Assembly (NCBI RefSeq): GCF_000420765.1
Contig: NZ_ATVO01000004.1
Location: 1 to 64,000, forward strand
DNA from: Sandarakinorhabdus limnophila DSM 17366
GTDB taxonomy: Bacteria; Pseudomonadota; Alphaproteobacteria; Sphingomonadales; Sphingomonadaceae
Reading direction: 5' to 3'
Length of the DNA: 64,000 nucleotides
The position numbers and the translations under genes are program-made. How positions within the stretch are numbered: position 1 is the stretch's first letter; each line of letters starts with the position of its first letter. Under the pieces are notes generated by a model that did not search any database, had not been told where the DNA came from, and saw only the letters and a program-made list of their open reading frames with translations. Below are positions 37,701-39,069 of this stretch, one piece after another.

Positions 37701-38450
37701 TCAGGCAGCAACGACGGTCTTGCGACGGCGCGCGGCCAAACCGACGAAGCCAAAGCCGAGCAGCAGCAGAGCCCAGCTCGACGGTTCGGGAACAACCGTC
37801 GGCGTCGGCGGGATGATGATGGTTGCCGGATCGGTGGTGGCAACGGCAAAGGCGCGATCAATCACGATGTCCTTTGATGCGCCGCCTAGGTTCGAATTGA
37901 ACACGAAGGCCGTGGTGTAATAGCCGGCCTGCGTGATCTGGCCGACGCCCGAAACATTCTGCCAGACACGGCCGGGTGCGCCCGAAATGACTGCGGTGGC
38001 AGCAACTGGGGCGCCAATGATCGTGGCGCGGAAACTGGAATTGCCCGGATTGGCGAGGCCGTTGGCGGTCAGGAAATAGCTGAAGCCCAGCCGGTAATTA
38101 CCGACCCGCAGATAGGTGAGCTGCGACATGGTTTCGTTGACCGACAGATCGCCAACGAAATAAGCGGCCTTGCCGCCAACCGCATCGGGGCTGGCCGAAA
38201 CACTATTGTCAGCAAACACGCTCTCGCCGAAGGCGCCATTGGGGTAGCTCGCCGTGCTGTTGTAGTTGATGACGCTGGCCGGCGCGTTGCTTGGCACATT
38301 GGACTTGGTCCACTGCAGGAAGCCGCCCGTGCCAACCGCACCCGCTTCGAAACTGCCGTTCTTGATGAGGTTGGTCACCGCTGCAGCGGGAGCAGCGACC
38401 GAGGCCGCAGCCAGTACCACCGCATTGATGGCAAGATTCTTGAAGTGCAT
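37701..38450 (-). CDS. PEPxxWA-CTERM sorting domain protein 2
   Basis: A 249-aa exported protein with a signal peptide (about 1-24, MHFKNLAINAVVLAAASVAAPAAAV). The mature part starts TNLIKNGSFEAGAVGTGGFLQWT and is beta-rich, with NETMSQLTYLRVGNYRLGFSYFL and a linker of Pro/Thr/Ile before the signal. The sorting signal VPEPSSWALLLLGFGFVGLAA plus RRRK has PEP 29 residues from the end, as in the other two family members here. AGGAG lies ten bases before the ATG. It has its own sigma-54-type promoter (38535-38550) and a terminator, so it is a single-gene unit. Confidence 0.92.
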   Translation of the reverse strand: MHFKNLAINAVVLAAASVAAPAAAVTNLIKNGSFEAGAVGTGGFLQWTKSNVPSNAPASVINYNSTASYPNGAFGESVFADNSVSASPDAVGGKAAYFVGDLSVNETMSQLTYLRVGNYRLGFSYFLTANGLANPGNSSFRATIIGAPVAATAVISGAPGRVWQNVSGVGQITQAGYYTTAFVFNSNLGGASKDIVIDRAFAVATTDPATIIIPPTPTVVPEPSSWALLLLGFGFVGLAARRRKTVVAA

Positions 38451-38534
38451 CTGAAAAAAGCTCCTGGAAACCATGATCCGGCGACCATCAATGCGTGCAG
38501 CCACACACTGAAAGACGACGTTGATCCAGCCGAA

Positions 38535-38550
38535 TGCAACGACCGTGCCA
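38535..38550 (-). promoter_or_regulatory. Perfect sigma-54 (RpoN) promoter of PEP-CTERM gene 2
   Basis: On the minus strand TGGCACGGTCGTTGCA matches the -24/-12 consensus TGGCAC-N5-TTGCA exactly. Transcription would start near 38523, leaving about 75 nt to the ATG at 38450. In other bacteria PEP-CTERM genes are controlled by RpoN with the PrsK/PrsR system, which makes the assignment plausible. Confidence 0.75.
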
Positions 38551-38589
38551 AGAAATGCGATCATTCAATATCAAGGAGTTAAATGGTAA

Positions 38590-38610
38590 ACTTTCGGTTA
38601 ACTGTAAAGT
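38590..38610. promoter_or_regulatory. Imperfect palindrome, candidate activator site for PEP-CTERM gene 2
   Basis: ACTTT and AAAGT flank GTTAAC (38597-38602) in a 21-bp imperfect palindrome centred about 77 bp upstream of the predicted transcription start. This is a reasonable place for a sigma-54 enhancer-binding protein such as PrsR. Confidence 0.5.
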
Positions 38611-38639
38611 ATACCGACAGTCCCACGCGCAACCGACAA

Positions 38640-38921
38640 TCAGGAGACGACTTCCGGCAACCCGTTCTTGCGGCGGCCAAACACGGCGCCCAGCACCACA
38701 AGGCCCAGCAGGCCGGCGATGATCGGCCCGGTGTCGCCGCTTTCCATGGCGCTGGCGGCTTGGGTCCCCGCGATACCATCCGTCGTACAGGCGGGATCCT
38801 CAGCCGGGCAATCTGCCGGCGCTACCGCGCGCGCGCTGTTTGCCAGGTTCACCATCTGGGTTGCGGCCGCCGGCTGCGCCAGCATCATCAGCATCACCAG
38901 GAAAAACCCACGCCTCAGCAT
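38640..38921 (-). CDS. Small exported protein with C-terminal membrane anchor
   Basis: A 93-aa protein I do not recognise. It has a signal peptide (about 1-20, MLRRGFFLVMLMMLAQPAAA), a short mature region with two cysteines (ADCPAEDPACTTDG) likely to form a disulfide, then GPIIAGLLGLVVLGAVFGRRKNGLPEVVS. That end is a hydrophobic helix followed by two Arg and a Lys. The layout recalls PEP-CTERM and related sorting signals but without PEP, and with a 9-residue tail after the basic cluster. It is upstream of PEP-CTERM gene 2 on the same strand; the start at 38921 is preferred to ATG 38951. Confidence 0.6.
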   Translation of the reverse strand: MLRRGFFLVMLMMLAQPAAATQMVNLANSARAVAPADCPAEDPACTTDGIAGTQAASAMESGDTGPIIAGLLGLVVLGAVFGRRKNGLPEVVS

Positions 38922-39069
38922 CACTGTCCCCACCGCAAAACCAACGCGCAATCACTTCATCGCACCGCAACATGTCCGTCACATGACATGACGACCCCTG
39001 ATAGGGGCGAAATGTCCACTATTGGTTACAGCCAGTTACGGCGCGCGCCCGGCGGTGGTTGCAGCGCGT

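Follow-up and report, generated by a model that had tools for sequence, protein, structure and literature searches.

The window analysed here, a 64-kb stretch of the Sandarakinorhabdus limnophila genome (assembly of 2.61 Mb in 11 contigs, 99.99% complete), contains three PEPxxWA-CTERM genes, only one of which (37701-38450, minus strand) is preceded by both a putative activator box and a sigma-54 promoter. Its product is a protein of 249 aa with an N-terminus that is signal-peptide-like by eye and a C-terminal PEPxxWA sorting signal (37722-37793, minus strand; 45.4-48.7 bits, cut-off 35), in agreement with the preliminary description of this DNA, which had recognised it as a PEP-CTERM protein. 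The sigma-54 (-24/-12) core TGGCACGGTCGTTGC (38536-38550, minus strand) matches TGGCAC-N5-TTGC exactly, and reads TGGCAC-N5-TTGCA when the next A (38535) is included. The same description had reported this RpoN match as TGGCACGGTCGTTGCA, which is present at 38535-38550 on the minus strand, and had placed it 85 bp from the ATG, which starts at 38450 and leaves 85 nt in between. From the usual position of the -12 element, transcription is predicted to start at 38522-38526 (about 38524, minus strand), 12 nt after the -12 C. The putative PrsR box TGTCGGTATACTTTACA (38603-38619, minus strand) lies 52 nt upstream of TGGCAC. The interval between box and promoter holds TATCAAGGAGTTA (38569-38581, plus strand, 18 nt upstream of TGGCAC), an exact match to WATCAANNNNTTR, which we take to be the consensus for integration host factor (IHF). 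Upstream of the promoter, a short ORF (38640-38951, minus strand) encodes a signal-like N-terminus and, at its C-terminus, a hydrophobic stretch with RRK and no PEP motif; two close relatives (L258 and L259) retain the 3' end of this ORF.

The window contains 106 places with at most two mismatches from TGGCAC-N5-TTGC (110 in shuffled sequence), and the core at 38536-38550 is the sole exact one. The genome contains 22 exact matches (13 forward, 9 reverse), whereas the reversed control pattern gives 4 (1 and 3). By inspection of their surroundings, about 7 of the 22 are intergenic and about 15 fall inside genes, for which reason the exact pattern by itself was rejected as a means of finding the regulon. 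Three of the intergenic matches (the core at 38536-38550, C7:59245 and C7:142692) precede PEPxxWA-CTERM genes. Two further exact matches were noted: one in the gap before a small gene (C4:169666-169680), outside the nine box places described below, and one about 118 nt before ihfB (C6:108842-108856). The close relatives L258 and L259 share the core unchanged and also conserve TGTCGG and TTTACA of the box, and sigma-54 control of the 37701-38450 gene is well supported as a prediction.

The activator site had been placed in the preliminary description at a 21-bp imperfect palindrome centred on GTTAAC, proposed as the binding site of an enhancer-binding protein. Its letters ACTTTCGGTTAACTGTAAAGT are present at 38590-38610 (no strand assigned), while the symmetry does not hold up: the ACTTT/AAAGT arms and GTTAAC are not in register, and 6 of 10 pairs match. 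At least the same degree of symmetry is seen in 2,208 of the 63,980 21-mers of the window, and one base of the palindrome differs from both close relatives. The conserved element overlaps the outer arm only. By inspection, nothing corresponding to the palindrome, which was to be sought at other PEP-CTERM promoters, is seen at this genome's other box promoters. We accordingly rejected it as the activator site and list it as an unsupported element.

The box itself recalls the system described in the text of Haft et al. 2006 (PMC1569441). There, motif 1, of 17 nt with TTTACA at its end, is the predicted binding site of PrsR, a response regulator, and is followed by a -24/-12 motif 2 (mean spacing 62.8 nt, SD 10.6, range 32-92); 99 of 167 proteobacterial PEP-CTERM genes are preceded by the pair. 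The window's element has the same parts: TGTCGGTATACTTTACA comprises 17 nt ending in TTTACA (compared with the text description of motif 1, the logo positions lying outside the comparison), its 52-nt spacer falls within the 32-92 nt given for the distance to the -24(GG)/-12(GC) motif, the 85 nt from core to start codon are short and fall within the Haft-type range of 23-221 nt, a PEP-CTERM gene follows, and the genome encodes PrsR. Unlike the system as described there, the promoters considered here fall into three phased spacer classes and carry an IHF-type site, and the present genome has an interrupted PrsK and yielded no exosortase.

The form TGTCGG-N5-TTTACA occurs exactly seven times in the genome, and nine times with at most one mismatch (two for the reversed control). 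Six of the seven exact boxes are on PEP-CTERM promoters, two of them on one gene, and the seventh (C3:276795) is followed 63 nt on by an exact sigma-54 site and then by a 41-codon ORF. The two boxes that share a PEP-CTERM gene (C5:265182 and C5:265404) are 222 nt apart. In a further box promoter (C7:59165-59259) the box is symmetrical (TGTAAAGAGATTTTACA), a hint that its general form may be the dyad TGT-N11-ACA. A box together with a sigma-54 site is carried by 6 of the 23 PEPxxWA-CTERM genes of the genome (in this tally the entry L029 is the promoter of L043).

The arrangement recurs in related bacteria. Box and promoter in exact form, with a gap of 45-74 nt, were found in 31 of 149 family genomes and in none for the reversed control; with a slightly looser -12 element they were found in 21 of 24 genus genomes, again with none for the control. 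The resulting lists (83 places in the family and 67 in the genus, 9 of them common to both) yielded 138 distinct site sequences including the window's, after one extra site in L173 was included, one duplicate sequence was merged, and G168:C159, C344 and C366 were left out. All 138 spacers fall into the ranges 51-54 (54 sites), 62-65 (65 sites) and 71-74 (19 sites) and none elsewhere in the allowed 45-74, where the sites of close relatives are non-independent and the third class is clipped by the limit of 74 (75 and 76 occur in this genome). A sample of 55 sites, to which most genomes contributed one or two, shows the same pattern. Intervals of about 10.5 bp would be compatible with a DNA loop in which box and promoter share a side of the helix. 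Co-occurrence of the box with PrsR (called at E 1e-150 from the best ten candidates per genome, with the lists matched by hand) is in the expected direction: the strict pattern is present in 30 of 126 family genomes with PrsR and in 1 of 23 without. This trend over the 149 genomes is weak, since 96 of the 126 PrsR genomes lack the strict pattern, and was set aside as support.

IHF-assisted sigma-54 promoters of the NtrC/NifA type combine an enhancer, an IHF site and the -24/-12 element in fixed helical phase. The promoters described here share this layout; unlike in those systems, IHF binding is predicted from the consensus match alone. The IHF consensus is matched exactly in 22 of the 138 spacers (200 shuffles: mean 0.5, maximum 3), and within one mismatch in 59 (mean 9.3, maximum 18), with no match of this quality at the remaining 79 sites. 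In the 63 and 73 spacer classes it most often lies 16 nt before TGGCAC; in the 52 class, to which the window's site belongs, its commonest positions are 17-18 nt before TGGCAC in reverse orientation, or 5-6 nt before. Among the seven box promoters of this genome, the match is exact in one (the window's), has one mismatch in two, and two to four mismatches in four. The ihfB gene is present in the genome.

Of the genes downstream of the 138 sites, 79 are PEP-CTERM genes by their C-terminal pattern; the other 59 were assigned by reading to 24 variant PEP-CTERM genes, 6 cut or unclear genes with signal-like starts, 19 mini-genes, and 10 that remained unassigned. Homologues of the 37701-38450 gene are found in seven named genomes (the close relatives among them belong to the order Sphingomonadales and include Polymorphobacter), and the upstream regions of six were compared, a weak Halomonas match being left out. 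The two close homologues (98% and 95% identity) have retained the promoter, whereas none was found upstream of the four with 57-69% identity (L260-L263, including that of Polymorphobacter multimanifer); this makes the regulon membership of this gene look recent. As the promoter is absent from the distant homologues, they were not used for footprinting by deeper alignment.

The 19 mini-gene sites share a distinctive organisation. A PrsR box placed within the 3' end of truA or shortly beyond it leads to a sigma-54 site and then to a mini-gene whose product of about 35-66 residues has a single hydrophobic segment. Some of the boxes are contained in the final truA codons, others closely follow the stop, and a TruA C-terminus was recognised by script within 240 nt upstream in 15 of the 19 (L129 also shows one). 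Fourteen of the sites are in this genus and five in three other genera, as assigned by genome label. The representative in this genome (C3:276795-277051, L071/L101) comprises the seventh exact box, the sigma-54 site and the 41-codon ORF; the relatives are L098, L102, L129, L132, L136, L138, L140, L145, L146, L150, L152, L182, L189, L198, L199, L210, L218 and L228. In 6 of 6 mini-gene pairs, third codon positions differ most, which suggests that the mini-gene is coding; codons with non-synonymous differences outnumber those with synonymous ones in 4 of the 6. For three mini-gene products examined, no NCBIfam or Pfam family scored above its cut-off.

The preliminary description had supposed that the PrsK/PrsR/RpoN circuit known from other bacteria operates here, and had called for a search for the three genes. 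Two of them are in order: rpoN is present as one intact gene scoring above its profile cut-off, and prsR is intact and without stops (TIGR02915, 674.6 bits, cut-off 502.6). The third is not: the adjoining prsK (C5:150325-152346, minus strand, in L061) matches TIGR02916 with two internal in-frame stops. The TIGR02916 matches in 22 other genomes of the genus contain no stops (one genome has no match), both stop positions are sense codons in 4 of 4 aligned relatives, and close relatives have an intact prsK with up to 98.5% identity. The circuit was inherited, and its present function is doubtful, as the interrupted prsK is accompanied by the absence of an exosortase and of the exosortase/EPS cluster.

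No match to the exosortase (EpsH) family (PF09721) was found in this genome, although the model does score exosortase V (XrtV), at 201 bits. XrtV is present in 22 of 24 genus genomes, being absent here and in one genome of 78% completeness. In a relative (G156), the xrtV cluster (about C7:365,424-381,041, 15.6 kb) encodes EpsE/F/G/L-like proteins (below cut-offs) and a WcaJ-type transferase (above cut-off). In the present genome these 15.6 kb are replaced by about 0.1 kb, and the flanks, which align at 91% and 93%, meet at C7:171,773/171,875 inside a 226-kb contig (L251/L243). A search for 12.0 kb of the cluster elsewhere in the genome gave no match among the best 40 of 358 candidates. In addition, three PEP-CTERM genes (C7:40385, C5:92512 and C8:56910; L030, L037 and L044) contain one in-frame stop each, at a position that is a sense codon in a relative for the first two; none of the three has a PrsR box. 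The C8:56910 gene resembles a paralogue of the 37701-38450 gene, and another PEP-CTERM locus (C7:97343) consists of an 81-codon fragment that lacks an obvious start.

As a control, ORFs were compared with those of close relatives, and 38 of 43 comparisons (some genes being compared twice) were intact. Only prsK has stops in the body of the gene. Two further ORFs were flagged for a stop in an over-long upstream extension; the cluster deletion truncates one more, and a separate gap of about 0.7 kb truncates the last. The stops flagged in a CoA-transferase-like gene and in miaA were rejected as decay, because they are located in extensions upstream of the probable coding regions. Changes of the C>T/G>A kind are not in excess on this lineage (29/51 versus 25/51; 19/67 versus 23/69 and 48/141), and damage or error was rejected as the cause of the stops. 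Decay of the system is apparent in the sequence of one assembly, in which a working PrsK/PrsR circuit is doubtful.

We consider it probable that the element in the window is a Haft-type three-part sigma-54 PEP-CTERM promoter that has outlived its system, with prsK interrupted and the exosortase V/EPS cluster missing. The motifs recur in the genome and its relatives in helical phase, and rpoN, prsR and ihfB are intact; from these, a sequence of events may be proposed. PrsR, an NtrC-type activator, would bind the box at 38603-38619, IHF would bend the DNA at 38569-38581, and PrsR would then open the complex of RpoN and polymerase on 38536-38550, so that the PEP-CTERM gene would be transcribed from about 38524. 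As prsK is interrupted by stops, PrsR would remain unphosphorylated or be driven by another source, and as the exosortase V/EPS cluster is missing, the PEP-CTERM product would presumably not be sorted in the usual way. The promoter itself is undecayed, which points either to a recent loss or to a PrsR that is still of use. At 98.5% identity between this prsK and that of the closest relative, the loss looks recent, and the intact promoters may not yet have had time to decay; alternatively, an undecayed promoter could signal continued use.

Other explanations were weighed. With so many of the exact -24/-12 matches in this genome located within genes, the core might be a chance match to the sigma-54 consensus, which is very improbable for a core that has a box at a phased distance, is kept in two relatives and stands directly before a PEP-CTERM gene. 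That PrsK, PrsR and RpoN work normally here, with the GTTAAC palindrome as the activator site, is quite unlikely: the intact rpoN and prsR are as expected, and a PEP-CTERM gene of Zoogloea resiniphila is reported to depend on RpoN and PrsK-PrsR (Gao et al. 2018, as cited in PMC9012009), but the two stops in prsK speak against a normal circuit, and the palindrome is at chance level and lacks a counterpart in the sister promoters. Sequencing or assembly faults might account for both the stops and the missing cluster, in which case the system would be whole. Only a single assembly is available, and the stop changes are of a kind that damage or error can produce; set against this, the gap is internal to a long contig and its two flanks align well to the relative's sequence, nearly all control comparisons are intact, and C>T/G>A changes are not in excess, all of which makes such faults improbable.

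Two readings in which the retained parts are still in use are less far-fetched, while still unlikely. The system may be rewired and not decaying, with PrsR active through another kinase or in unphosphorylated form and driving the PEP-CTERM genes together with a small membrane protein, exosortase V being no longer needed. The intact state of prsR, of six PEP-CTERM promoters, of the second box on one of them and of the truA-linked mini-gene would agree with this, as would the lack of a box on the three stop-bearing PEP-CTERM genes; the close identity of prsK to that of the nearest relative argues for a recent loss instead. It is likewise conceivable, though not the expected case, that the PrsR/RpoN regulon of these Alphaproteobacteria extends beyond PEP-CTERM proteins, with the truA-linked mini-protein as a core target in several genera, and that in this genome the regulon has been uncoupled from exosortase V and kept, under a PrsR without its own kinase. 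We favour the promoter that has outlived its system.

Promoters of this type, and their connection with PrsK/PrsR, are already known. RpoN and PrsK/PrsR control of PEP-CTERM genes in other bacteria, to which the preliminary description had rightly appealed, was predicted in 2006 and has been partly tested in Aquincola, Zoogloea and Desulfovibrio. For Aquincola tertiaricarbonis pepA, a TGGCAC -24 box, a predicted upstream enhancer, a mapped RpoN1-dependent start and an rpoN mutant are reported (PMC9850573); the window's promoter resembles it in the -24 box and the predicted enhancer, and differs in that its start is predicted and its signal is of the PEPxxWA type. The Desulfovibrio vulgaris PrsR DVUA0057 bound 5 of 5 predicted PEP-CTERM targets in vitro by DAP-chip, its binding motif remaining without validation in that study (PMC3333781); it likewise combines PrsR with predicted PEP-CTERM targets, in another class of bacteria. 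A gene-loss study of Ferrovum mentions exosortase (PMC4886054). In the parts of the literature consulted, neither the spacer phasing nor the IHF-type site was found described, nor were the truA-linked mini-gene or the half-retained state of the system in this genome, and papers combining PEP-CTERM with 'integration host factor' concerned, by their titles and the starts of their abstracts, only Geobacter biofilms and insect gut symbionts. The decayed state, the phasing, the IHF-type site and the mini-gene are the additions made here.

For promoters of this kind, the correct reading is by box, IHF site and phase, and not by palindrome. The genomes described here also form a natural experiment: among closely related genomes, some have the whole PEP-CTERM system, and one is without the kinase and the exosortase yet keeps the activator and its promoters. 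The action of PrsR without PrsK, the fate of unsorted PEP-CTERM proteins, and the order in which such a system breaks down can thereby be tested.
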